Of a stretch of 64,000 nt of DNA, positions 12,540 to 64,000 are shown piece by piece (position 1 is the first letter of the stretch; each line of letters begins with the position of its first letter). Source of the stretch: Ruminococcus sp. (lineage in GTDB: Bacteria; Bacillota; Clostridia; Oscillospirales; Ruminococcaceae); the NCBI GenBank assembly GCA_017460665.1, contig JAFUAO010000061.1, positions 25,748-89,747 on the forward strand, written 5' to 3'. Made by a program: the position numbers and the translations under genes. The notes beneath the pieces are model-generated. The model was not told the origin of the DNA. It was given only the letters and a program-made list of their open reading frames with translations, and searched no databases.

Positions 12540-15500
12540 TTATCCATGGAGCGCATTGAGCTGGTCCTGGGTCACAGGCAGGATATCCGGATCCAGCAGC
12601 TTTGCGTCGATCATCTGGACTGCCAGAGCGTCTATGCCGGTAACGCCGCTGGTGCCGTTGTCAACGATATCTGCGTTGGCCATGCCCTGTTCTGTAAGGG
12701 CGTATTTTGCCGGAAGAGCAGCATACTGGAGGATAGCGACTGCGTCTGTGAGATCAACCTTTCCGTCGCAGTTTGCGTCTCCCATTATCGCAGAGCCGGG
12801 CTCTGTGCTGGGAGCTGTGGTAACAGGCACTGTTGTGACAGGTGCGGTGGTGGTCGTTGTAGTTACAGGAGCTGTCGTTGTGGTAACTATGATCTCCTGC
12901 TCCTTAACGAAAACAGTGTACTGCATAACTCCGCTGGACTGTCCGTTCGTCCCGAGAGTCACCCTGTCGCCGGAATTTACATTCAGAGCGTAAACATCGA
13001 AGCTCCTGTCGGCTGTACCGTCGTTGAAGATTACAGACTCGCCGGTAGCTGTATAGCTGCCCAGCCACGAAGGGAGAGCCGTGACACGGCTGTCGATCGC
13101 AACATAGACAGTTGCGAACGTACCGGCTGTAAAGGCGGCCAGATCCTCTGTGCTGTTCTTTGAGTCGCAGGCTGTGATGATACGCTCGGCACCGGTCAGA
13201 GCGACGGGAAGTATGCCGTAGGTGAAGTCACGGTCGCCAAAGACCTTGTCTCCGGCCTGTGCGTTCTCTGCGATAGACCAGTCTGCGGAGTTCTCGCCGT
13301 CGTAGACCACAAGGTCCTTAGCGATGATGCCGCTTATGGGAAGTGTGACAGGAATGAGCTGCCAGTCCTGACAGTTGAAACCGTTCACTGTCCACTGCTG
13401 TACGTTTGCGCCGTAGTCCATGCTGCCGTTCTCGATCTCTACAGCGGACTTGTCTCCGGAGATCTTGGTGAGGATCTTGTAGGAGCCGTCGCTGTTCTGC
13501 ACGAATTTGAATTGCTGATTATCGCCGTTATTTGGCTGATACAGGTCGATATTAGTGCCGTCGTCAGCCTTTTTGCCTGCAACGTCCAGCACGAAGCTGC
13601 TGCCTCCTGCCAGTGCAGAATAGATGTAGTAGTAGCCGTCGCCGGCGGACATGAGCTTCCAGGTATTCCACTCGCCGGCACCGTTAGTTCCGCTGCCGTT
13701 GTTCTCCCACTGCTGGATATTGGAGCTGTTGGCTGCATTTCCGTCTGTAACTTCCATGTAAAGGCCGCTGTTAACGTTCTTGAACATGAACAGTGCGCCG
13801 TCAGTGAACTCTGCCGCAGTATTCCCGGAGGAAGAGGAACCGCCGTTGTAGGTCTTCTTCTGGTCCATTCGTCCTGAGTACTCCTTACACTCAGTCTTAG
13901 CCTGATCAGCGGTCTGAGGTGTGTAGCTGTACATATTCAAGTCGAAGTTGTCGTAGGCGTCTCCGCCGGACTTCTGGTTTGCGATAGAGGCGCTGGTATT
14001 TCTTGAGGTCACGATAGCGTATGCCAGAGCGCTGCCCATGGTGCAGCCGTCGAACTTATCGTTATAGGACTTGATCGTTCCTGAGTAGGCGTCTGAGCCC
14101 ATTGCCTCTGCTGCTAAGGGCTTGTAGGTGCCCTCGAAGTAATTGGCCTCAGAGAAGATCTTGGAGTTGTAGGAGGCTCCCAGACCGTACTGCTTGTTAG
14201 TTGTGAAGTAGTTATTGTAGCTGTGGATATGTGCGTTCCTTGCACGGGGGTTTCTAGACTCTGTATTGCAGAACCAGTTGTGGTGGTATGTGATGTAGTC
14301 CTGGAACTGAGTGGGACCGCCGCCTACCAGAGAGGTCTTGTGGCAGTTGATGTAGTAGTTGTAGGAAACAGTGATATACTCAGACCACTTGATGTCTGTT
14401 GAGCCGTCGCCGTCCGCCTTGTCATCATCAACTGTACCGTTTCCGGCGTAGGCGTTGTAGCCCTTCTCGATAGTGTTGTTGTGTACCCACATATGTGTGG
14501 ACTTGTTGGAGGAGTCTCCGGTCATGGAGATGCCGTCATCGGGATACTGTCCCAGCCAGAGGTTCCTTACCTCACAGCTAGTGCAGCGCTTCATCTCGAA
14601 GCCCCATTTGTTGAGGTCAGCGTTATAGCCGATACCCTCGATAGTCACGTTCTCGCCGTACTGGAGGTAGAGCATACTTGAGCCGTCGTTCTGCTTGCCG
14701 TCGTTGGCCTTAGCACCGCTGGGAACGTCGATAGTCCCTATGAAGCGGAAGCATACGTTGCTGGGCTTTGCGCTGTAGAAGATGTTGTAAAGGCCGGTCT
14801 TTCCGCCGTAAGAGATAGTGTCCTTGTTGGAGTTGGTAACATAGATCACGGTAACGCCTGATTTGAGCGTACCGTCGTCCTTATAGGCGCCTACGCCTGA
14901 TGTGTAGTTGTAGTGAGCATAGCCGCTGCGGTCGAACTTCATGGTAGTGATCTCGCAGGTTGCTGAGCCGGAGGAGCCCTCTAACTTCAGAGTATAGAAG
15001 GTATTCCCCTTCAGACCGGGAATGTCTACACGGTTGCTGCGGATCAGCTCTGAGTCGACTTCTGTAAAGGAGGAGCTGCCTGACTGGGCGTAGCTGACCT
15101 TGACATTGCTGCCAATCTTTGAGCTGTCCCACTCAGCGAAGGCCTCCTCGTACCAGCCGCCGCAGAGAGTTATCGCACCGTCGGCGGCTCCTGTGGAGCC
15201 GGAGGAGCTTGATCCGGTGGAGGCTGACTCGGCAAGATAGGTGGGGGTCCAGTTTTTCATATAGTCTGTGAGCTTGATGCCCTCGGCATCGGAGGCTGAG
15301 AGGGTGTGGCCTTTTCTGGAGGAAAGACTCACTGCTGTGCCGTTTGCCAGCTTTGTGCCGTACTCCTTGAATCCGGCAACGTTCTCGGGCTGCACGCCGC
15401 TCATGGAGTACCAGCCTGCTGCGTCGATACAGTCGGCGCTCTCAAGGGTGGTATTCACGAACATGACCTTGGCCGTGTCACGCCAGGGGCGTCCCAGATA

Positions 15501-16442
15501 GCCGGATTTTACGGTGAGAGAGGGGCTCTTCTTAACTGTGCAGTTGGAGAACAGATAGCCTGTATCGTCATTGCTCTCGTCTCTTGCGGCAGTGATGTAG
15601 CCGCCGGAGGCTCCTGAGCTGTAGCCCTTCCACACCAGATCGCAGGTGTCGAAAACTGCGGAGGAGTCGCCGAAGATGTAGTCGGTCTGGCCTTCGATAT
15701 GGCAGTTCTTGAAATAGAGGGGCGAACCGCCTGTATAGAGAGTGTCCTGACTTGAGAGGAACTTACAGCCAAGGAATTCAGCGTAGGCTGCGTCTGCGGA
15801 GAGGGCCGCTGCACGCTCTGTTGCTGCCTTGGACTGAACGTCTGTGGAGGAATTTCTCACCTGAGAGATGCTCGATGTTGCGGAGTCGTTCAGTAGGGCA
15901 ACTCCGTCGGCGACCTCCTCGGTGGTCATATAGCGGTTGAACGAGTTCTCAAAGACGATGTTCTTTGCCTTGAAATAGGTAGCCTTAGGCCAAAGCTGGA
16001 CCGTAGCGCCCCAGCGGTAGCTGGCAGGCTTCTTTGCGGACTTTGCAGAAGCTGCGCTGCTGTCGTAGTAGCCCTTGTCGTTGCAGCTATAATAAGTATA
16101 GCCGATGCCGTAATACCATGTGAGGACAACGTCGCCTTTGGAGGGCTCGTCGTTCACGAAGGTGATGTAGGGCGTCTGGACGATGACCTGCTGGCGGTAT
16201 GTACCGGGAGCGATGTGTATGGTCACACGGTCATTCTCTGATGAAGGGGCGATGCTCGCCGCCTTGTTTACAGCGTCCTGAACTGTGGAGAAGTTGTTGG
16301 CTTTGCTTGAATAGCCAACATACAGGTCAGTTCCGGCTGCACTTGCTGTCTGCTGAGGGAAGACGAGAAGCTGTGCCAGCAGCATACAGATCACAGCGAA
16401 AACTGAGATCATAGAAAGCTGCGCCTTTCTGTTTCGGATCAT
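12540..16442 (-). CDS. Secreted multidomain pectinase: pectinesterase (CE8), pectate lyase (PL1), CBM13-like, dockerin
   Basis: A 1300-residue secreted enzyme. After a signal peptide (residues ~1-35) comes a CE8 pectin methylesterase (~40-370) with the active-site strings SSQDTLYTGG, GQTDYIFGDS and GYLGRPWRDT. After a Ser/Gly linker and a small beta domain, a PL1 pectate lyase (~520-860) shows YPDDGISMTGD, THMWVHNNTIEKGY and SRNPRARNAHIHS. A ricin-type carbohydrate-binding module (~890-1035, two QQW repeats), a further beta-domain, a Thr/Pro linker and a ruminococcal type I dockerin (GDANCDGKVDLTDAVAILQY, with a second calcium loop-like half) complete it. De-esterification and cleavage of pectin are combined in one cellulosome-docking chain. 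The start at 16442 has AAGGAG upstream. Confidence 0.93.
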   Translation of the reverse strand: MIRNRKAQLSMISVFAVICMLLAQLLVFPQQTASAAGTDLYVGYSSKANNFSTVQDAVNKAASIAPSSENDRVTIHIAPGTYRQQVIVQTPYITFVNDEPSKGDVVLTWYYGIGYTYYSCNDKGYYDSSAASAKSAKKPASYRWGATVQLWPKATYFKAKNIVFENSFNRYMTTEEVADGVALLNDSATSSISQVRNSSTDVQSKAATERAAALSADAAYAEFLGCKFLSSQDTLYTGGSPLYFKNCHIEGQTDYIFGDSSAVFDTCDLVWKGYSSGASGGYITAARDESNDDTGYLFSNCTVKKSPSLTVKSGYLGRPWRDTAKVMFVNTTLESADCIDAAGWYSMSGVQPENVAGFKEYGTKLANGTAVSLSSRKGHTLSASDAEGIKLTDYMKNWTPTYLAESASTGSSSSGSTGAADGAITLCGGWYEEAFAEWDSSKIGSNVKVSYAQSGSSSFTEVDSELIRSNRVDIPGLKGNTFYTLKLEGSSGSATCEITTMKFDRSGYAHYNYTSGVGAYKDDGTLKSGVTVIYVTNSNKDTISYGGKTGLYNIFYSAKPSNVCFRFIGTIDVPSGAKANDGKQNDGSSMLYLQYGENVTIEGIGYNADLNKWGFEMKRCTSCEVRNLWLGQYPDDGISMTGDSSNKSTHMWVHNNTIEKGYNAYAGNGTVDDDKADGDGSTDIKWSEYITVSYNYYINCHKTSLVGGGPTQFQDYITYHHNWFCNTESRNPRARNAHIHSYNNYFTTNKQYGLGASYNSKIFSEANYFEGTYKPLAAEAMGSDAYSGTIKSYNDKFDGCTMGSALAYAIVTSRNTSASIANQKSGGDAYDNFDLNMYSYTPQTADQAKTECKEYSGRMDQKKTYNGGSSSSGNTAAEFTDGALFMFKNVNSGLYMEVTDGNAANSSNIQQWENNGSGTNGAGEWNTWKLMSAGDGYYYIYSALAGGSSFVLDVAGKKADDGTNIDLYQPNNGDNQQFKFVQNSDGSYKILTKISGDKSAVEIENGSMDYGANVQQWTVNGFNCQDWQLIPVTLPISGIIAKDLVVYDGENSADWSIAENAQAGDKVFGDRDFTYGILPVALTGAERIITACDSKNSTEDLAAFTAGTFATVYVAIDSRVTALPSWLGSYTATGESVIFNDGTADRSFDVYALNVNSGDRVTLGTNGQSSGVMQYTVFVKEQEIIVTTTTAPVTTTTTTAPVTTVPVTTAPSTEPGSAIMGDANCDGKVDLTDAVAILQYAALPAKYALTEQGMANADIVDNGTSGVTGIDALAVQMIDAKLLDPDILPVTQDQLNALHG

Positions 16443-16497
16443 AGTATACAACTCCTTAAATATAATGATATTTCAGCCAATTGACTATAAAAGCTAG

Positions 16498-16549
16498 AAT
16501 TGGCCAATTATATTTATTAAACTATACCATATTATTAAGTTTTTGTAAA
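16498..16549 (-). promoter_or_regulatory. Promoter of the pectinase with palindrome at the transcript start
   Basis: Minus-strand TTTACA (16544-16549), 17 bp, TATAGT (16521-16526). The perfect 12-bp palindrome AATTGGCCAATT (16498-16509) falls a few bases after the expected start of transcription, where a repressor would act. The regulator is unknown. Confidence 0.55.
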
Positions 16550-16611
16550 TGATATTTTGTACTTTATAGCTGAGCTATTATGCTATATCGGTCAGCCGGG
16601 AAACTATGGGC

Positions 16612-16638
16612 AAAAAAAGGGACGCATTTGCGTCCCTT
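16612..16638 (-). terminator. glmS terminator
   Basis: AAGGGACGCA pairs with TGCGTCCCTT, followed on the minus strand by seven T. Confidence 0.9.
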
Positions 16639-56238: not shown

Positions 56239-57363
56239 TTATTTCCTGCCGAGAGAGCGCAGGTGCTCCATGAAGGCTGCCTTGTTCTCAGAGGGCGGTA
56301 CAGTTGGCCTTCCAAGATCTGGCCGGGAGCCTATAGCCGCCTTTACCTCGATGAAGGTCAGCTCTCTTTCCGAGGCTGCTCTGCTGAGGACCTCCCTGAG
56401 AGAGCTCTCGCTGTCGGCTGAGAAGGCCCTCCTGTAGCCGCAGGCCCTAGCTATCGCCGGAAGATCCGCTGAAGAGGCGGCAGTCGGCATACCTCCCACC
56501 GACTCATGAGCGCAGTTATTTATGACGATGTGGACCAAATTCTCCGGCGAAGCGTTTCCGATGACTGCCATTGCTCCCATGTGCATGATCAAGGCGCCGT
56601 CGCCGTCGATACACCAGACCCTTGCGGAGGTATCCATGGCTATCCCAAGAGCGATAGACGAGCAGTGTCCCATGGATCCAACTGTGAGAAGATCTCTGTG
56701 GTGCCCGGATCCTGATCTCTCCCGGAGCTCAAAGAGCTCCCGGCCAGCCTTCCCCGTAGTAGCGATCACAGGGTCCTCGCCGGAGAACTCCGTGATCAGA
56801 CTTATGGCCTCCTCACGGGTCAGGGAGCAGCCGTTCCTGTAGACCGCCTTTTCATGGACGAGGGCGCCGCTTTTCACCACAAGGGCCACCTGTCTGCCGT
56901 TTTTCAGCAGAGGCCCGGCCTCCTCCATTATGCCGGAGAGCTCCTCCTCACCGGTCTCCTCCCCTATGATCCAGTAGGGGATCTCCATAGTGTCAAGGAG
57001 CGGAAGTGTCTTTTTCCCCTGAAAGCTGTGCTGAGGCTCGTCGTGAGTCCCCGGCCTGCCCCTCCAGCCGATGACGAAGATCACCGGGATCCCGTATACC
57101 TCCGGGCTGAGAAGGCTCGCCGCCGGGTTTATGATGTTGCCCTCGCCGGAATTCTGCAAATACACCACAGGGACCCTTCCGGTGGAAAGGTAGTGTCCGG
57201 CTGCGGCTGCGGCACAGTTCCCCTCATTTGCAGCGATAAGGTGACGTGAATTATTGGTCCCGAAGCGCTCACAGAGGCAGTCACACAGGCCTTTCAGGGC
57301 ACTGTCGGGGACTCCCGTGAAAAAGTCTGCACCAAGTATCTGGATAAAGCGTTCAGCTCTCAT
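56239..57363 (-). CDS. ppd: Phosphonopyruvate decarboxylase
   Basis: A 374-residue TPP enzyme, the length of single-chain Ppd. FFTGVPDSALKGLCDCLCE is the family opening. AANEGNCAAAAAGHYLSTGR has the catalytic Glu47, VYLQNSGEGNIINPAASLLS and VIGWRGRPGTHDEPQHSFQG are strong Ppd markers, and WCIDGDGALIMHMGAMAVIG is the TPP/metal site. It converts phosphonopyruvate to phosphonoacetaldehyde, the step that drives phosphonate synthesis. PEP mutase is not in the window. The related sulfopyruvate decarboxylase is less likely given the DEPQH motif. Its ATG overlaps the stop of the reductase gene (ATGA). Confidence 0.88.
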   Translation of the reverse strand: MRAERFIQILGADFFTGVPDSALKGLCDCLCERFGTNNSRHLIAANEGNCAAAAAGHYLSTGRVPVVYLQNSGEGNIINPAASLLSPEVYGIPVIFVIGWRGRPGTHDEPQHSFQGKKTLPLLDTMEIPYWIIGEETGEEELSGIMEEAGPLLKNGRQVALVVKSGALVHEKAVYRNGCSLTREEAISLITEFSGEDPVIATTGKAGRELFELRERSGSGHHRDLLTVGSMGHCSSIALGIAMDTSARVWCIDGDGALIMHMGAMAVIGNASPENLVHIVINNCAHESVGGMPTAASSADLPAIARACGYRRAFSADSESSLREVLSRAASERELTFIEVKAAIGSRPDLGRPTVPPSENKAAFMEHLRSLGRK

Positions 57364-58490
57364 TTTTCTCTCCTCTCAAAGATCCTGCGGTAGATCAGCT
57401 CAAGACCCTCTTCATCGGGCAGGACGGGATTTCGCTCCAGCCTTCCCGGATCGACAGATCCTGCAAGGGACGAGATCTCCTCATCGGTGATACCCTCCGG
57501 CAGGGAAAGCCCTAGGCTCCCCGGAAGATCTCTCAGCATGGCGGCGGCCTCCAGCGGATCCTTCCTGCCAAGGAGGGCTGCAAGCTCGGCCAGGGTATCT
57601 CTCAGGTAGGCCTCTCCCCTACTGTCGGTGCATTTGCCCTGTCCCTCTGCCATATAGCGGAGGATCTCCGGCACGCAGACCGCAGCGGCGTGGCCGTGAG
57701 GGAGACCGTATTTGCCGGTCAGCTCATAGCTCATGGCGTGTCCGGCGGTGGTCGCAGTTATGTTGATCGCCTGACCTGCGATGTAGGCGGCATCGAGGAT
57801 CCTCTCGGCACAGCCTTGATCTCCTTCAAGATAGCCCTTCATATCGGCAAGTATGATACTTATGGCCTTTCTGGAGAGCTCCTTGCTCTCCTGCGTAGAT
57901 CTGACCGACCAGAAGGACTCGATAGCGTGGCAGAGCGCATCCAGCATTGCGGACTTTTTGTGTATGTCCGGCAGTCCTGACAGGAGCTCGTGATCCAGCA
58001 GTACAGCCTGTGGGATAAGTGTCTCGTCGGTGACAGAGAACTTCTTCCCATTGTAGTAAACTACGGCGTATCTTGTGACCTCGCTGCCGGTGCCGGCAGT
58101 AGTTGGGATCGCTATGAGGGGGATCCCGTTCTCGGCGATCGGCTGTAAGATCCACTCCTCTCCGTCGGGCATTTCAGCGAAGGCCTTGATACACTTTGCG
58201 GTGTCCATTGCGCTTCCGCCTCCTGCTGCAACTATCCCCTGACAGCCGGCTCTTCGGTACTCCTCGACTCCGGCACAGGCCTCCTCATAGGAGGGGTTTG
58301 GAGAAAACCCGGAAAACTGCACGATCTCTATGCCTGTGCGCTCCGGGAGCTCACGGAAGAACTCTCCGGCCCTTGTCCGTGAAAGGGACCTTCCGCACAC
58401 CAGCATGAGCCTTTTGCGCCCAAAGGAGGCGATGTATCTCTCCAGCTCCTTATAACCATTTTCTCCACGAAAAACGATCTGTTCCTTCAT
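57360..58490 (-). CDS. Iron-containing alcohol dehydrogenase, probable phosphonoacetaldehyde reductase
   Basis: A 376-residue group III alcohol dehydrogenase. GIVAAGGGSAMDTAKCIKAF binds the nucleotide; metal ligands are in MLDALCHAIESFWS and GLPHGHAAAVCVPE. FSGFSPNPSYEEACAGVEEY is typical of the reductases found in phosphonate clusters (FomC, PhpC and DhpG type). Coupled to the decarboxylase by a four-base overlap, it should reduce phosphonoacetaldehyde to 2-hydroxyethylphosphonate. The ATG at 58490 has AAGGAGCG upstream. An ordinary aldehyde reductase is the alternative. Confidence 0.85.
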   Translation of the reverse strand: MKEQIVFRGENGYKELERYIASFGRKRLMLVCGRSLSRTRAGEFFRELPERTGIEIVQFSGFSPNPSYEEACAGVEEYRRAGCQGIVAAGGGSAMDTAKCIKAFAEMPDGEEWILQPIAENGIPLIAIPTTAGTGSEVTRYAVVYYNGKKFSVTDETLIPQAVLLDHELLSGLPDIHKKSAMLDALCHAIESFWSVRSTQESKELSRKAISIILADMKGYLEGDQGCAERILDAAYIAGQAINITATTAGHAMSYELTGKYGLPHGHAAAVCVPEILRYMAEGQGKCTDSRGEAYLRDTLAELAALLGRKDPLEAAAMLRDLPGSLGLSLPEGITDEEISSLAGSVDPGRLERNPVLPDEEGLELIYRRIFERREK

Positions 58491-58519
58491 ATTTTCGCTC
58501 CTTATCATCAGTTTAGCTA

Positions 58520-58548
58520 ATTATAGCACGTTTCCCTGTAAAAATCAA
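58520..58548 (-). promoter_or_regulatory. Promoter of the decarboxylase-reductase operon
   Basis: Minus-strand TTGATT (58543-58548), 17 bp, TATAAT (58520-58525). Confidence 0.85.
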
Positions 58549-58567
58549 CGCCGCAGCAGCAAAAGAC

Positions 58568-58581
58568 GTGACATTTGTCAC
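58568..58581. promoter_or_regulatory. Palindromic candidate operator between divergent operons
   Basis: GTGACA-TT-TGTCAC is a perfect 14-bp palindrome that also fits GTGA-N6-TCAC, the core of CRP/FNR-family sites. It lies between two divergent promoters and could co-regulate both. The binding protein is not known. Confidence 0.5.
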
Positions 58582-58655
58582 TGATCAAATGACGGCTGAC
58601 AGCTTTAATTTTTCCGGGATCTGATGTATCATAAGACCGTGGAGAGTAATCCTCG

Positions 58656-58684
58656 TTGACAAAGAGGCTCCTAAGTCTTATAAT
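58656..58684 (+). promoter_or_regulatory. Promoter of the lipid-type operon
   Basis: TTGACA (58656-58661), 17 bp, TATAAT (58679-58684), matching consensus exactly. Transcription should start about 58691, giving a leader of only about 15 bases with AAGGAG at its very 5' end. Confidence 0.88.
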
Positions 58685-58705
58685 AAGAAAAAGGAGAATT
58701 AAAGG

Positions 58706-59350
58706 ATGTTTTGTTTATACAAGATCATGCGGAGCGTTCTTGCTCCTGTCTTTACCCTGCTCTACAGGCCGAGGATCATCGGCGCCGAGAATATCCCTAA
58801 GAGCGGTGCTGCCGTTATCGCCGGGAACCATAAGCACGCTCTCGATCCGATCCTGATCGACATCTCCACAAAGCGTGTCGTGCGGACTCTTGCCAAAAAG
58901 GAGCTCCATGACGGGCCCTTTGGAGGAATGTTTCGCAGCGTCGGCACTATACCTGTTGACCTCCACGCTGATCATAACCACGACGCCTTCATCACTGCGG
59001 TGGAGGCTCTTGAAGAAGGACAGCTCGTGAACGTTTCCCCGGAGGCTAAGAGGAACTACACCGACCAACTCCTGCTACCCTTCAAATTCGGCGCAGCGGC
59101 CATGGCCGGAAGGACCGGAGCTGTGATCGTTCCCTACGCAATAACCGGCGAATACAGGCTCTTTGCACGGAACAGGCTGACCGTTGTTTTCGGACGGCCC
59201 ATGACTGCCTCTGAGGACGCTGACAGGACCAACGAAAAGCTCTACGGGGCGGTGGCGTTCCTGCTTAGGAGGTCCATGCCAAAGGAACAGCTCTCGGCGA
59301 AGTTTTTTACATCATATAGGGAGTGGAGAAGCAATGAAAAGACATCTTGA
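58706..59350 (+). CDS. PlsC-like 1-acylglycerol-3-phosphate acyltransferase
   Basis: A 214-residue acyltransferase of the PlsC family. The catalytic NHxxxxD is in AAVIAGNHKHALDPILID (His42, Asp47), and the phosphate-site motif in NVSPEAKRN replaces the usual FPEGTRS. GTIPVDLHADHN and GAVIVPYAITGEY follow. It should move an acyl group to a glycerol-3-phosphate or similar acceptor at the membrane. The altered second motif (SPEAKRN) suggests a different acyl donor or acceptor. It is the first gene of a five-gene operon in which neighbours overlap or touch. Confidence 0.87.
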   Translation: MFCLYKIMRSVLAPVFTLLYRPRIIGAENIPKSGAAVIAGNHKHALDPILIDISTKRVVRTLAKKELHDGPFGGMFRSVGTIPVDLHADHNHDAFITAVEALEEGQLVNVSPEAKRNYTDQLLLPFKFGAAAMAGRTGAVIVPYAITGEYRLFARNRLTVVFGRPMTASEDADRTNEKLYGAVAFLLRRSMPKEQLSAKFFTSYREWRSNEKTS

Positions 59351-60971
59351 ATATCCTGAGATCTCGGTCTACGATCTTTTGGAGCAAAAGGCCGGAGAAT
59401 TTTCCGAGCTCTGCGCTTTGAACTATTTCGGGGCAAAGACCTCCTACCGAAAGCTAATACAGAAGATAAAGGAGTGCGCCAAGGCCCTTGACGCTCTGGG
59501 AGTAAAAAAGGGCGACAGCGTTTCTGTCTGTCTTCCGAATATCCCGGAGGCGGTCCACCTGTTTTACGCCATTGACCGCCTTGGAGCGGTCTCCAACATG
59601 ATCCATCCCATGTCGGCTGAGAACGAGATCCTGCGCTTCGTGGAGCTCACCGACAGCCGGCTGATCTTCGGTATAGACCTGATCGGCGAAAAGCTGGAAA
59701 GGGTCCGTGAGAAGCGGCCTGACCTGAGGATAGTGACTGTCAGCGCCTCAAGGTCCATGCCCATTCATCTGAAAATGGGCTATAAGCTGACCCAGAAGAA
59801 GCCTCCTGCCTGCTCAGCCATGAGCTGGGACAGCTTCATCTCGGGGGCTAAAAACGGCAGGGACATCAACTCTCACGGTGCTGCGGACGATACTGCGGCG
59901 ATCCTTTACAGCGGCGGCACTACCGGCAAGCCAAAAGGGATAATGCTGACGAATATGAATTTCAACGCACTTGCTATACACAGCATCGACGCCTGCGGAG
60001 GCCTTGCGCCGGGCATGAAGATGCTCTCGGTGATGCCCATATTCCACGGCTTCGGCCTGGGCGTCTGCATACACACGATGCTGGTGCTGGGGGGAACTGC
60101 TGTGATCCAGCCAAAGTTCTCTGCAAAGGACTTCCCAAATCTCCTGTTCAAGTACAGGCCGGATATGATCGCAGGTGTCCCGGCCATTTACGAGGCAATG
60201 ATCGTTGACAAGAGCTTCAGCGGCAAGGATCTCAGCTTCCTGAAGTGTATCATTTCCGGAGGAGATTCTCTCGCCCCCTCCACTAAGAAGAAGCTGAACA
60301 TGATGCTGGCGGAACACGGCTGCAAGGCCAGGGTCCGTGAGGGCTACGGTCTGACAGAGTGCGTCACCGGGAGCTGCCTTATGCCGGAGGGCCCTGATGA
60401 TCTGCTCAGTGTGGGACTTCCCTACGCCGATACCTTCTACAAGATCGTTGACGAAAGCGACAGGGAGCTCCCTCCCGGCGAGACCGGACAGATCATTCTC
60501 CGTGGCCCCTCTGTCATGAAGGGCTACTACAAGGAGCCGGAGGAGACAGCGAGGGCCCTCCGCAAAAGAGATGACGGCTGCACCTGGCTGTATACCGGGG
60601 ATCTGGGCTATATGAGCGAGAATGGCTACGTTTACTTTGCTCAGAGGCTGAAAAGGATGATCGTCTCCGGCGGATATAACATCTACCCCCAGAATATCGA
60701 GGGGATCATCAGCTCCCACAGAGACGTGATCATGTGTGCAGTCGTGGGCGTGCCGGACCAGATCATGGGCGAAAGGGTCCGTGCCTGCGTGGTGCCTGCC
60801 GATGGCTGTGACGAGGAGAAGCTGAGGGAGGAGCTCTGTCAGCTCTTGGAGAAAAACGTTGCTCGGTATGCTCAGCCGAGAGAGCTGTTCTTCATGAGGG
60901 AGCTGCCTAAGACCTTAGTGGGAAAGATCGCCTACAACGAGCTGAAACAGGAGGCTGTGAATGAAAAATAA
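59334..60971 (+). CDS. Acyl-AMP/acyl-CoA ligase (AMP-binding)
   Basis: A 545-residue AMP-forming ligase. The ATP loop is ILYSGGTTGKPKGIMLTN (residues 193-202 the core), with GYGLTECVTGSCLMP, YTGDLGYMSENGYVYFAQR, and SGGYNIYPQNIEG. The catalytic Lys is in PKTLVGKIAYNEL. It activates a carboxylic acid, presumably a fatty acid, for the adjacent acyltransferase or the radical SAM step. The start at 59334 overlaps the acyltransferase by 17 bases. There is no carrier protein gene beside it. Confidence 0.93.
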   Translation: MKRHLEYPEISVYDLLEQKAGEFSELCALNYFGAKTSYRKLIQKIKECAKALDALGVKKGDSVSVCLPNIPEAVHLFYAIDRLGAVSNMIHPMSAENEILRFVELTDSRLIFGIDLIGEKLERVREKRPDLRIVTVSASRSMPIHLKMGYKLTQKKPPACSAMSWDSFISGAKNGRDINSHGAADDTAAILYSGGTTGKPKGIMLTNMNFNALAIHSIDACGGLAPGMKMLSVMPIFHGFGLGVCIHTMLVLGGTAVIQPKFSAKDFPNLLFKYRPDMIAGVPAIYEAMIVDKSFSGKDLSFLKCIISGGDSLAPSTKKKLNMMLAEHGCKARVREGYGLTECVTGSCLMPEGPDDLLSVGLPYADTFYKIVDESDRELPPGETGQIILRGPSVMKGYYKEPEETARALRKRDDGCTWLYTGDLGYMSENGYVYFAQRLKRMIVSGGYNIYPQNIEGIISSHRDVIMCAVVGVPDQIMGERVRACVVPADGCDEEKLREELCQLLEKNVARYAQPRELFFMRELPKTLVGKIAYNELKQEAVNEK

Positions 60972-62295
60972 AAGAGCCCTTCTGGTCCACCCCGAGATCT
61001 CACGGACGAAATATAACTTCGCCGGGATCATCGACAATGAGCCCTTAGAGCTGGAATACATCTATGCTATGCTGAAAGACATGGGTTGGGAGCCCTACAT
61101 TTGGGACGGTCAGGTGGAAAAGCAGCCCTTCCGCAGCCGCCTTGCAGAGCTTAGCCCGGCAGTGGTCTATATCTGCGGCAGAACTCGGCAGGAGGGCTTC
61201 ATGAAGGAGTACGCAAAGGCCGCGAAGGAGTCCGGAGCTGAGACCATGATCGGCGGGCTCCACGCACAGCGCTGCTACAGCCGGTTCTTCACGGACTACA
61301 TCGACGTAGTTTTCACCGGCTTTGACGTTGCACCGATCAGGGATCATCTAAGGGGAGATCCTTCCGAGTCTATCAGTTCCATGTGCTGGAAAAAAGACGG
61401 AAAATGGACCGTAAACAAGGCTGTCCCGGCGGAGATAAATGATCTTCCAAGGCCGGACAGGAACTATTTCTACCAGCACTCTGACCGCTACCGCTATCTG
61501 GAGCTGCTGCCGGCTGCCCATGTAAGGACCTCCTACTGCTGCCCGTACAAGTGCAGCTTTTGCCTTAGGAACATCCTGAACTGCGGCCGTTATTCCGTTC
61601 GGGACATTGCCGACGTGGTGGACGAGATCCAAGGGATAGAGTGCGAGAACATCTACATCATCGACGATGACTTCCTCTTCGGAGAGGAACGCCTCCGGGA
61701 GTTCATAAGGCTGATCCGCTCGAAAAATATCCGAAAGCGCTTTGTTTGCTACGGAAGAGCCGATTTCATCGCAGCTCACCCGGACCTTATGCAGGAGCTG
61801 AAAAGCATCGGCTTTTACTATATCCTCGTGGGTCTTGAGGCTGCGGACGAGCGCTATCTTGAGTCCTACAACAAGCGCTCGGACATGGAGGCCAATGTCA
61901 AGGCGGTTTCGGTCCTTAACGAGGCCGGGATCAACATCATGGGAATGTTCATCGTGGATCTGGACTTCACCGGGAAGGACTTCCGGAGGATCTGGAGGTG
62001 GGTGAAAAGATACGGCCTAAAGCACGCCGCTGTGTCCATTTTTACCCCTGAGATGAACTCCACGGCGATCCGGAGCTGCAGGGACCGGCTGATCACCCGT
62101 GACCCGGCGCACTGGGACTACCTCCACGTTGTGGCAAGGCCGGAAAAGCTCTCGGTGAGAGGCTACTATTTCTACTATCATATCCTTCTGATTCGCCTGT
62201 TCCTCAGGGCTTGGCGGCAGGGGATCTACGACTTTATCGACTACGGCTTTTTCATCAAGTCGTTCATCAACAATATGTTCAGATTTGGAGGCTAA
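60961..62295 (+). CDS. B12-binding-type radical SAM enzyme
   Basis: A 444-residue protein. An N-terminal Rossmann-like B12-binding domain (~1-135, with ETMIGGLHAQRCYSRFF) is followed by the radical SAM core with CPYKCSFC (Cys194, 198, 201), then IYIIDDDFLFGEERLREFIR and GLEAADERYLESYNKRSDME. No DxHxxG base-off motif is seen, as in many BchE- and HpnJ-like enzymes. Relatives methylate, cyclise or couple unreactive carbons, including on lipids and phosphonates (Fom3 type). The flanking ligase and phosphatidyltransferase genes suggest a lipid substrate. It starts within the ligase gene (11-base overlap). Confidence 0.88.
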   Translation: MKNKRALLVHPEISRTKYNFAGIIDNEPLELEYIYAMLKDMGWEPYIWDGQVEKQPFRSRLAELSPAVVYICGRTRQEGFMKEYAKAAKESGAETMIGGLHAQRCYSRFFTDYIDVVFTGFDVAPIRDHLRGDPSESISSMCWKKDGKWTVNKAVPAEINDLPRPDRNYFYQHSDRYRYLELLPAAHVRTSYCCPYKCSFCLRNILNCGRYSVRDIADVVDEIQGIECENIYIIDDDFLFGEERLREFIRLIRSKNIRKRFVCYGRADFIAAHPDLMQELKSIGFYYILVGLEAADERYLESYNKRSDMEANVKAVSVLNEAGINIMGMFIVDLDFTGKDFRRIWRWVKRYGLKHAAVSIFTPEMNSTAIRSCRDRLITRDPAHWDYLHVVARPEKLSVRGYYFYYHILLIRLFLRAWRQGIYDFIDYGFFIKSFINNMFRFGG

Positions 62296-62296
62296 A

Positions 62297-62968
62297 ATGG
62301 CTGAGAATTACACAAATCCTGTCAAAAAACTTATCCCCAGCAAGCTGGAGACCGGCTATCAGCAGCTCATGTACAAGCTGATGGGGAAGCATATCCCCAA
62401 GAACGCTACCCCTAACCAAGTGACTGCCGTAGGAGCTCTGGGAGGGCTCTTTGCGATAGTTTGTGCTCTGCTGGCCAATATCACGCCCCTGTTCTTCATC
62501 GGCACCATATTCGGACTTTTCGTCCATATGACAGCGGATGTGCTGGACGGATACGTTGCCCGGACAAGGGGTATGTCCTCAAGGGCAGGCGCCTATTTCG
62601 ACCTGTTCACCGATGTGCTGATCTCCACCTTCCTGATACTGGCCTTCGGACTGACGCCCTACGCTCATCTTGCTCCGGCAGCCTTTGCTGCTCCTCTTTA
62701 CGGAGTCATGAACGTGACCATGATGAACTATATCATCTATTTCAACGAGTTCCAGTTCCCTCGGCTCGGCCCGATCGAGGCCCACATCGCATACTCAGTT
62801 TTCTGCATACTTGCCATGATCATGAGGACGAAGGTCCTGTTCACTGTCTTTGGCATAGGAGTTATGATCGGCGATGTGCTCATGATCGTCGCAATGCTGC
62901 CCATGTACTACGAAATGGTCAGGATGGCGATAGTTCTTTTCCGGAGACTGAAGGAGCTGGAAAAATGA
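62297..62968 (+). CDS. CDP-alcohol phosphatidyltransferase
   Basis: A 223-residue membrane enzyme with about six helices. The complete catalytic motif is present: DVLDGYVARTRG...GAYFDLFTD (Asp81, Asp84, Asp102, Asp106). It transfers a CMP-linked phospho- or phosphono-alcohol or phosphatidyl group between an activated donor and an alcohol. It does not look like a standard PgsA. In phosphonate loci, enzymes of this kind attach phosphonate head groups to lipid. The ATG at 62297 has GGAGG upstream and directly follows the radical SAM stop codon. Confidence 0.92.
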   Translation: MAENYTNPVKKLIPSKLETGYQQLMYKLMGKHIPKNATPNQVTAVGALGGLFAIVCALLANITPLFFIGTIFGLFVHMTADVLDGYVARTRGMSSRAGAYFDLFTDVLISTFLILAFGLTPYAHLAPAAFAAPLYGVMNVTMMNYIIYFNEFQFPRLGPIEAHIAYSVFCILAMIMRTKVLFTVFGIGVMIGDVLMIVAMLPMYYEMVRMAIVLFRRLKELEK

Positions 62969-63591
62969 AGACCGTCTACATCGTCCTTGTAAAGGCTCAC
63001 ACCGGCCTCGGAGCAGTTGCTCGGAAGATCACCGGCTATCCATATACTCACGTTGCCGTAAGCCTGGACCGCTCCATGGAGGACTTCATCAGCTTCTCCC
63101 GGAGGAGGCATTTCTTCCCCTTCGACGCCGGCTTTACCCACGAGAGCCGCAGCTCATACGCCTTCGGGGATCACAGATCCTTCAAGGCTAAGATCTTCTC
63201 CCTTCCGGTCAGTGACGAGGCATATCTCAGGATCACCGACTATATCTCGGAGTGCGAAAAGGATCCAAAAAGGCTCTTCAATATCTTTTCCATGGCAACT
63301 ATGCCGCTGATCGGGGGCTTTCGGATCTGGCACGCTGACAACTGTATGTCCTTTGTCTCAAGGGTGATCCAGCTCAGCGGAGCTGTTAAAATGGACCGCT
63401 CTTACTGGAGGTATGCTATAAAGGACCTTGACAGGCTCCTTGCAAAGGATCTCTTCTTCGAGGGGAAGATCTTTCGCAGCTCTCCGCCGGATCCGGAGTA
63501 TATGGAGCCCTTTGAGCTGGGGGCCTTCCTAAAGGAAATGTTCTCTCTCATCGGTCGGCTGACCTACAGGCTCTTTTTCAATAGACCATAG
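62965..63591 (+). CDS. NlpC/P60-superfamily (permuted papain-like) protein
   Basis: A 208-residue protein. GYPYTHVAVSLDRSMED has a His at position 29 and WHADNCMSFVSRVIQLSG a Cys at 127; in permuted NlpC/P60-type proteins (YiiX/LRAT-like) His precedes Cys, as here. Relatives hydrolyse or transfer acyl groups (LRAT, lecithin:retinol acyltransferase) or peptides. That fits with the acyl-lipid operon it ends, overlapping the phosphatidyltransferase by four bases (ATGA). A terminator follows. The LRAT-like reading is inference; substrate unknown. Confidence 0.75.
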   Translation: MKTVYIVLVKAHTGLGAVARKITGYPYTHVAVSLDRSMEDFISFSRRRHFFPFDAGFTHESRSSYAFGDHRSFKAKIFSLPVSDEAYLRITDYISECEKDPKRLFNIFSMATMPLIGGFRIWHADNCMSFVSRVIQLSGAVKMDRSYWRYAIKDLDRLLAKDLFFEGKIFRSSPPDPEYMEPFELGAFLKEMFSLIGRLTYRLFFNRP

Positions 63592-63633: not shown

Positions 63634-64000
63634 TGTTGGTTTGTCAATGATGTGAGACAAATTAAATCAAAAAACTTGACCTGATTTAAGGAAAGCTTTG
63701 ATGTGATCGGAGGGAGACTTCCAGTTAAGTGGGCACATAGGGAAATTGTTGTATTTTCTGCTGTGAACAGCTAATTGCTTCTTGAAGTCATCGAAGGAAT
63801 AGAATGTATGAGTAGCATAGAAATACTCGTTATCCTTTCGGTGAGAACGTTCAACTTTACCGTTATGACGAGGAGTGTATGGTTTTATGAGCTTGTGTTT
63901 TATGCCAAGTTCTGCAAGCTTTTTCTCAAATGAAGTGGGAGTGGGCTTTTCAGAACTACCGAGCCGCTTTGTAAACTCCTGTCCGTTATCAGTCTGAACA
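63634..64000 (-). mobile_element. Insertion sequence, partial at window edge
   Basis: The element end is placed near 63634, where TGTTGGTTTGTCAATGATGT begins, because IS3/IS481-type ends open with TG. The other end lies outside the window, so the terminal repeat could not be confirmed. Confidence 0.55.
63667..64000 (-). CDS. Transposase, rve (IS3/IS481-like) catalytic domain, C-terminal part
   Basis: The visible 111 codons are the end of an integrase-core transposase. QTDNGQEFTKRLG contains the second Asp of the DDE triad, and IKPYTPRHNGKVERSHRKDN the final Glu with the usual RHNGKVER context. It ends at 63667 (TGA). The first Asp lies outside. The element sits just past the terminator of the lipid-type operon and is intact as far as it goes. 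Confidence 0.88.
   Translation of the reverse strand, partial: VQTDNGQEFTKRLGSSEKPTPTSFEKKLAELGIKHKLIKPYTPRHNGKVERSHRKDNEYFYATHTFYSFDDFKKQLAVHSRKYNNFPMCPLNWKSPSDHIKAFLKSGQVF

Follow-up and report, generated by a model that had tools for sequence, protein, structure and literature searches.

A divergent Ruminococcus locus that, with a separate PEP mutase gene, probably directs phosphonolipid synthesis by a Kennedy-type route

The stretch of rumen Ruminococcus sp. DNA analysed here (the window; 64,000 nucleotides of assembly GCA_017460665.1) contains, at positions 56,239 to 63,591, two divergent operons that bring phosphonate enzymes and lipid-modifying enzymes together. With a gene for phosphoenolpyruvate (PEP) mutase, pepM, located elsewhere in the genome, this locus probably makes a phosphonolipid by a Kennedy-type route; the probability of this reading is put at about two in three. 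The window is the right end of contig C40 in a genome of 2.87 Mb and 104 contigs, estimated to be 92.9% complete (G000; G and L numbers denote genomes and loci). All seven genes are intact and tightly packed, and the operons diverge from a region of 197 bp. Domain and motif searches thus bear out the gene content and the overlapping or touching arrangement given in the initial annotation of this DNA. The features are as follows.

56239..57363, minus strand: Ppd, phosphonopyruvate decarboxylase, a thiamine pyrophosphate (TPP) enzyme (TIGR03297 432.3 bits against a cut-off of 312.5; GDG...NN TPP motif)
57360..58508, minus strand: iron-containing alcohol dehydrogenase (Fe-ADH), probable phosphonoacetaldehyde reductase giving 2-hydroxyethylphosphonate (HEP) (PF00465 141.9 bits)
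58509..58705, no strand: shared divergent control region (promoter-like sites)
58568..58581, no strand: operator-like palindrome GTGACATTTGTCAC
58706..59350, plus strand: PlsC-type acyltransferase (PF01553 77.2 bits; NHX4D motif)
59334..60971, plus strand: acyl-adenylate (acyl-AMP) ligase, fatty acid activating (PF00501 256 bits; P-loop SGGTTGKPK)
60961..62295, plus strand: radical S-adenosylmethionine (SAM) enzyme with a B12-binding-type N-terminal domain
62297..62968, plus strand: cytidine diphosphate (CDP)-alcohol phosphotransferase, CPT/CEPT-like (PF01066 42.8 bits, over cut-off; an upstream TTG start at 62285 is possible)
62965..63591, plus strand: permuted papain-like (YiiX-fold) protein, possible lipid deacylase or acyltransferase

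It is proposed that PepM would convert PEP to phosphonopyruvate, from which Ppd would form phosphonoacetaldehyde by decarboxylation; the Fe-ADH, whose gene overlaps that of Ppd by 4 bases, would then yield HEP. A nucleotidyltransferase (NTP), fused to PepM in G000 and fused to the dehydrogenase or to Ppd, or separate, in relatives, would make the cytidine monophosphate (CMP) ester CMP-HEP. The CPT/CEPT-like transferase may move HEP from CMP-HEP onto a diacylglycerol-type lipid, and PlsC with the acyl-AMP ligase may load a chosen fatty acid onto the lyso form, like a split Aas. The YiiX-fold protein would probably remove or transfer an acyl group, and the radical SAM enzyme is predicted to modify the lipid, most likely its chain or backbone. 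We infer every reaction, HEP as the substrate and the order of the steps from the genes, their motifs, linkage and conservation, the shared control region and fold matches.

A phosphonolipid product had already been suggested in the initial annotation, whose weak point was that the window has no pepM. A search of the whole genome repairs this. A PEP mutase on contig C62 (G000:C62:4836-5687) scores 376.4 bits with TIGR02320, over the cut-off of 319.55, and carries the EDKX5NS motif (PMC6697681) as EDKTGLKRNS. The opposite notion, that no pepM means no phosphonate, was rejected on this evidence, and with pepM in the genome and contiguous operons in relatives the phosphonolipid is favoured. The open reading frame (ORF) of pepM (L002:3618-5693) has the domain order NTP_transf_3, CTP_transf_like, PEP_mutase (PF01467 and PF13714 in one ORF) and is a Fom1-like cytidylyltransferase-PepM fusion. 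Its NTP domains provide a candidate for the CMP-phosphonate nucleotidyltransferase, which the initial annotation had also proposed to seek. Triple PepM fusions of this kind have been inventoried before, in 42 proteins (Rice et al. 2019, PMC6697681). In both G000 and its nearest relative, G001, pepM adjoins a gene read as birA; as pepM stands apart from Ppd and Fe-ADH in two genomes, an assembly accident is unlikely. Reading of the sequence also picked out recombinase-like genes upstream of the G000 pepM (L002:285-2531); they are not seen in G001 (L070) and may mark the insertion of a mobile element.

In relatives, homologues of the window dehydrogenase lie next to pepM or form a fusion with a nucleotidyltransferase, and in this phosphonate context the Fe-ADH is a probable phosphonoacetaldehyde reductase. 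The aminoethylphosphonate (AEP) transaminase PhnW (TIGR02326) finds no match above 34.1 bits in G000, by which an AEP product was rejected for this genome, and it is over cut-off in 2 of the 32 genomes with a radical SAM homologue. This near-absence argues for an alcohol as the headgroup, not an amine. The genome-wide search was run with TIGR02326, not with the related TIGR03301, although TIGR02326 does give the TIGR03301 enzyme of G005 a score of 277.7. That AEP aminotransferase lies with an octopine-dehydrogenase-like gene in a separate pepM cluster of G005 (L060), which suggests that some carriers may make both alcohol and amine. G005 also has a pair of NTP and Fe-ADH genes elsewhere (L094).

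Searching GTDB genomes with the radical SAM protein as query yielded 32 loci, spread over 31 genomes. In 10 of the 32, pepM lies directly after the papain-like gene (L006, which a contig end cuts, L007, L012, L013, L015, L022, L025, L026, L031 and L035), and in eight of these ten it is followed by Ppd and then by a single protein with both NTP and Fe-ADH domains, a fusion recognised by Pfam for L012 and by BLAST for the other loci. L031 carries at 14767-16620 an NTP fused to a rhomboid domain in place of the NTP-Fe-ADH fusion. Other phosphonate genes are adjacent in four loci: L004 (Ppd and Fe-ADH, divergent), L005 (pepM and Ppd, divergent), L024 (a Ppd-NTP fusion and Fe-ADH upstream) and L016 (an NTP-Fe-ADH fusion downstream). 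An NTP without phosphonate genes occurs in five (L018, and L020, L023, L027 and L033, which also have an importer), and three are cut by a contig end (L014, L017, L028). Whether the two operons keep company in relatives, a point on which the initial annotation had staked its proposal, thus has a divided answer: phosphonate genes adjoin the lipid genes in 14 of 32 loci, and adjacency is frequent but not universal.

In addition, a different contig of G011, the source of L014, has the papain-like gene, pepM, Ppd and NTP lined up (L054). Six more genomes come from the family and class samples described below. The one-contig genome G148 (L101) has the acyl-AMP ligase, radical SAM, transferase and papain-like genes, pepM, Ppd, NTP and Fe-ADH in one row, with NTP and Fe-ADH as separate genes. 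In G116 (L102), the papain-like gene is followed by pepM, Ppd and NTP without a break. In G552 (L099), one gene separates the papain-like gene from pepM, Fe-ADH and Ppd; this intervening gene (L099:9611-10375) encodes a LysE-type translocator, a possible exporter. In G189 (L105) and G606 (L106), pepM and Ppd are elsewhere in the genome, and in G224 the locus is cut by a contig end and no pepM was found in the genome. A chance neighbourhood was rejected on the strength of the contiguous operons in other genomes. The cassette is found in Butyrivibrio and Ruminococcus, with isolates including Ruminococcus flavefaciens 007c and Butyrivibrio proteoclasticus P6B7.

Co-occurrence points in the same direction. 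At E<=1e-3, pepM was detected in 23 of the 32 genomes, counting G000; at E<=1e-50 the number is 22, and 18 are over cut-off. The EDKX5NS motif is present in 22 of the 23, the remaining one (G003) being cut, and Ppd is over cut-off in 24 of 32 genomes. The safer counts are those over cut-off, at E<=1e-50 or with the motif, because at E<=1e-3 the pepM model also matches 6 of 14 control genomes and the Ppd model 13, though never over cut-off. In family and class samples not chosen by pepM, the gene occurs at E<=1e-50 in 24 of 197 and 32 of 391 genomes. Radical SAM orthologues are present in 5 of the 197 (G127, with tandem paralogues at 35% identity, was dropped) and 3 of the 391 (six at 37-40% were dropped), and the transferase gene is found in exactly these genomes. 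With G000 removed, pepM accompanies the orthologue in 3 of 4 family genomes vs 20 of 192 without it (Fisher p=0.005), and in 2 of 2 class genomes vs 29 of 388 (Fisher p=0.006), in samples that partly overlap, are small in number and are uncorrected for relatedness. The same-genus genomes G050 and G166 have neither pepM nor the radical SAM nor the transferase genes.

On the lipid side, the transferase carries the CDP-alcohol phosphotransferase motif, DX2DGX2ARX8GX3DX3D, complete in 24 of 24 aligned sequences. Its profile finds CPT1/CEPT1 as the best solved matches over most of the length (CPT1 E 1.7e-7), and AF2299 over part of it (E 7.6e-7). The nearest NCBIfam model to the single sequence is archaetidylinositol phosphate synthase, at 46.2 vs 180 bits. 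PlsC matches PRK08633, an acyl-[ACP]-phospholipid O-acyltransferase, at E 1.8e-19, below cut-off, and together with the acyl-AMP ligase it resembles a split Aas. The papain-like protein has a permuted papain-like fold with His before Cys, as in the permuted NlpC/P60 enzymes YaeF/YiiX; Pfam gave no consistent family across 27 members (best E 0.0015), and its profile had no match at E<=1 among solved structures. Alignments A1 and A2 hold the window and 26 of the 32 loci (L011, L014, L017, L028, L033 and L035 left out), and A3 is the same minus L029, L030 and L032. These last three have divergent radical SAM proteins (41-49%) and no transferase within the fetched stretch, which suggests that the radical SAM and papain-like pair may serve lipids more widely.

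The radical SAM enzyme has the CX3CX2C motif in 27 of 27 aligned sequences and an N-terminal B12-type Rossmann domain (PF02310, 32.7 vs 32.1 bits). Its model finds fold matches over the whole length, the nearest being AprD4, an enzyme that works without cobalamin. The description of it as a B12-type radical SAM enzyme therefore stands for the motif and the domain, whereas its use of B12 is only predicted. It falls below the cut-offs of named families (HpnR 112.7 vs 650, BchE 99.8 vs 481.35, PhpK 79.8 vs 600 bits), and its step may act on the lipid or on HEP. Action on HEP would resemble that of Fom3, which acts on CMP-HEP: here CMP-HEP would become a 2-hydroxypropylphosphonate headgroup before transfer, giving a C-methylated phosphonolipid, the second product named in the initial annotation. 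The Fom1-like fusion of G000 is consistent with this, as are the constant company of radical SAM orthologue and transferase in both samples and the P-methylase PhpK as third-best distant NCBIfam match. Nevertheless, the nearest families are HpnR and BchE, neither near its cut-off, the divergent pairs of L029 and L030 belong to genomes without pepM, and many pepM genomes lack such a radical SAM enzyme; C-methylation is rated improbable.

Alternatively, the enzyme could join or branch acyl chains, as in the diabolic-acid-type membrane-spanning lipids known from Butyrivibrio, with HEP attached to that lipid. The presence of the cassette in Butyrivibrio as well as Ruminococcus would suit this idea. 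PMC13274423 mentions diabolic acid in lipids of Butyrivibrio, and PMC8941075 cites a proposal that this acid arises by a radical mechanism. Against this, the published coupler is Mss, which PMC13274423 describes as structurally like Tes, and Tes is neither among the solved matches of the radical SAM profile nor among the 50 model matches listed, a result that excludes nothing. Chain joining is considered unlikely. Seven other Clostridia genomes, none with a pepM match, were also seen to carry B12-type radical SAM paralogues in tandem, two to four per array and 20-38% identical to the window gene by BLAST (L076-L079, L082-L087).

In the importer variant (L020, L023, L027 and L033), a major facilitator superfamily (MFS) protein and a free-standing NTP take the place of pepM, Ppd and the fusion. 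The closest models to the MFS protein of L020 are PgtP (148.9 bits), UhpC (114.8) and GlpT (102.1), none over cut-off. No pepM was found in these genomes, and no Ppd except in G025, all being draft genomes of 1.3-1.7 Mb. Fosfomycin is taken up by GlpT/UhpT. Since a phosphonate needs no kinase and the transporter family takes up organophosphates, import of HEP is the simplest reading, and these carriers are probable HEP scavengers. It could also be argued that phosphocholine or another imported phospho-alcohol is what the transferase uses, with the phosphonate module as only one of several donors. The pepM-less variant itself is compatible with this, and so is the best solved match of its NTP, the phosphocholine cytidylyltransferase LicC. 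However, L020, L023 and L027 have NTPs that share 78-84% identity with the NTP domain of the L022 fusion, which lies beside pepM and Ppd, and that group with the fusions in the NTP tree (six-row clade 98/95; four-row clade with L022 94/94), so the same substrate is likely. L027 and L022 are sisters in the tree of the radical SAM protein (100/99). As LicC is likewise the best match for the fused NTP of L012, it does not discriminate between the two substrates. A phosphocholine-like donor is regarded as very unlikely.

The two operons also share a control region. A promoter-like site at 58656-58684 on the plus strand, leading into PlsC, agrees with the consensus at 12 of 12 positions with a 17-base spacer, and another at 58548-58520 on the minus strand, leading into the alcohol dehydrogenase, at 10 of 12; such sites number 7 in 8 kb vs 4.1 +/- 2.2 in shuffles. 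Both hexamer pairs are recognisable in the relatives L004 and L005. The palindrome lies between the two sites and is the sole match in 64 kb at <=1 mismatch (chance mean 0.09). Among 27 stretches (the window and 26 of the 32 loci, with L014, L028, L029, L030, L032 and L035 left out), it occurs with <=1 mismatch within 900 bp upstream of PlsC in nine, with 2 matches in their other 534,690 bp. One of those two, L018:7529, falls within a PlsC ORF, 25 bases in, but translation there probably starts further downstream. L004, L008 and L009 have it upstream of PlsC; in L008 it recurs every 21 bases, giving three copies, two with 2 mismatches. In L005 and L025 the sites have two mismatches. Near pepM it is no better than chance in L002 and L070, the single 1-mismatch site of L070 not being beside pepM. 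Within the Ruminococcus-like branch, the palindrome has the look of an operator for the lipid operon. A nitroreductase-family gene stands between palindrome and PlsC in three Ruminococcus loci (L009:7160-7696, by Pfam; like-clustered ORFs in L010 and L011).

Several results weigh against a phosphonolipid. Among solved structures the transferase has only distant relatives, the nearest at E about 1e-7, and the Fe-ADH is below the PsrA cut-off (TIGR03405, 150.9 vs 423.7 bits). In G000 and G001, pepM is on another contig and has no palindrome beside it; upstream of PlsC the palindrome is absent, at <=2 mismatches, in 16 of 27 stretches. No pepM was detected in 9 of 32 genomes, and G016, G026, G027, G029 and G030 lack both pepM and a related NTP, with Ppd present in G027. 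No headgroup gene was recognised in the fetched stretch of 10 of 32 loci (L008-L011, L019, L021, L029, L030, L032, L034), five of which have pepM elsewhere in the genome. Such loci, and the distant pepM of G000, would fit two unrelated divergent operons, the phosphonate genes decorating a surface glycan and the lipid genes serving a common phospholipid; according to PMC6697681, bacteria are believed to use most of their phosphonate capacity for tailoring the cell surface. Yet single packed operons in several lineages, the enrichment of pepM in cassette genomes, the CPT-type transferase and the conserved control region make unrelated operons quite improbable, and the phosphonolipid remains the preferred product.

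Similar combinations are known elsewhere. The fosfomycin pathway (Fom1/FomC/Fom3) has Ppd, an Fe-ADH, a CMP-HEP intermediate and a B12-type radical SAM enzyme. Here, unlike there, lipid genes are joined, an extra NTP_transf_3 domain is present and the likeness of the radical SAM enzyme to Fom3 is only a candidate one. CPT1/CEPT1 of the eukaryotic Kennedy pathway are likewise CDP/CMP-alcohol and diacylglycerol transferases, whereas the present protein is bacterial, short (223 aa), distantly similar and predicted to handle a phosphonate headgroup. PlsC with an AMP ligase recalls the lyso-lipid recycling of Aas/LplT, but here they are two separate genes, below cut-off, in a putative phosphonolipid operon. 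The PepM of the fosfomycin pathway, Fom1, is also fused to a CTP_transf_like domain (PMC6697681). PntC phosphonyl tailoring (PMC6697681; solved NTP-aminotransferase 6pd1) similarly uses CMP activation of a phosphonate with the NTP fused to a pathway enzyme; in the present case the fusion partner is Fe-ADH, not an aminotransferase, a lipid transferase is in the operon, and 'alcohol dehydrogenase' is absent from the main text of PMC6697681. The papain-like protein shares fold and His-before-Cys order with YiiX/LRAT permuted NlpC/P60 enzymes (PMC3142127; PMC7387801 on LnsA), but has no sequence-family match.

The nearest precedent, described in PMC5987646 after Yu et al. 2013, is a cluster of lichen Nostoc predicted to make a phosphonolipid; it has a homologue in Burkholderia. 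In it, too, pepM, ppd, an NTP transferase and a CDP-alcohol phosphatidyltransferase stand together. As described there, the Nostoc cluster has an AEP transaminase and a 2-oxoglutarate oxidase, where the present one has an alcohol dehydrogenase, suggesting HEP. Beyond that cluster, the genes for PlsC, acyl-AMP ligase, radical SAM enzyme and YiiX-fold protein, the anaerobic Clostridia as hosts and the importer variant are found here. Among the matches listed from open-access PMC (titles and abstract openings, mostly without subscription papers; the NTP-dehydrogenase fusion was not searched for), there was no paper on the cassette or on Ruminococcus phosphonolipids. Almost nothing is known of the biosynthesis and roles of bacterial phosphonolipids (PMC6697681).

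As this biosynthesis is mostly predicted rather than demonstrated, the locus offers a compact, testable set of genes in named isolates. More broadly, and with a little less than an even chance of being right, Clostridia of rumen and gut may make a new class of lipid, an HEP-headed glycerolipid with a radical-SAM-modified acyl part built by a bacterial Kennedy-type route. Producers would make HEP, sometimes by way of the NTP-alcohol dehydrogenase fusion, and pepM-less neighbours would import it through an organophosphate transporter. If so, some of the phosphorus in rumen bacteria would sit in C-P lipids, which ordinary phospholipases might be unable to cleave. Rumen organisms would share or scavenge the headgroup, and lipid chemistry would be a new role for a radical SAM enzyme.

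Among named relatives, Ruminococcus flavefaciens RUG10602 is nearest by the radical SAM protein (83%), followed by a Ruminococcus from sheep omasum (73%), in a list that may omit very near records. An integrase/transposase-like ORF (judged by reading) at 63667-63999 begins 76 bases past the papain-like gene and runs off the contig end.

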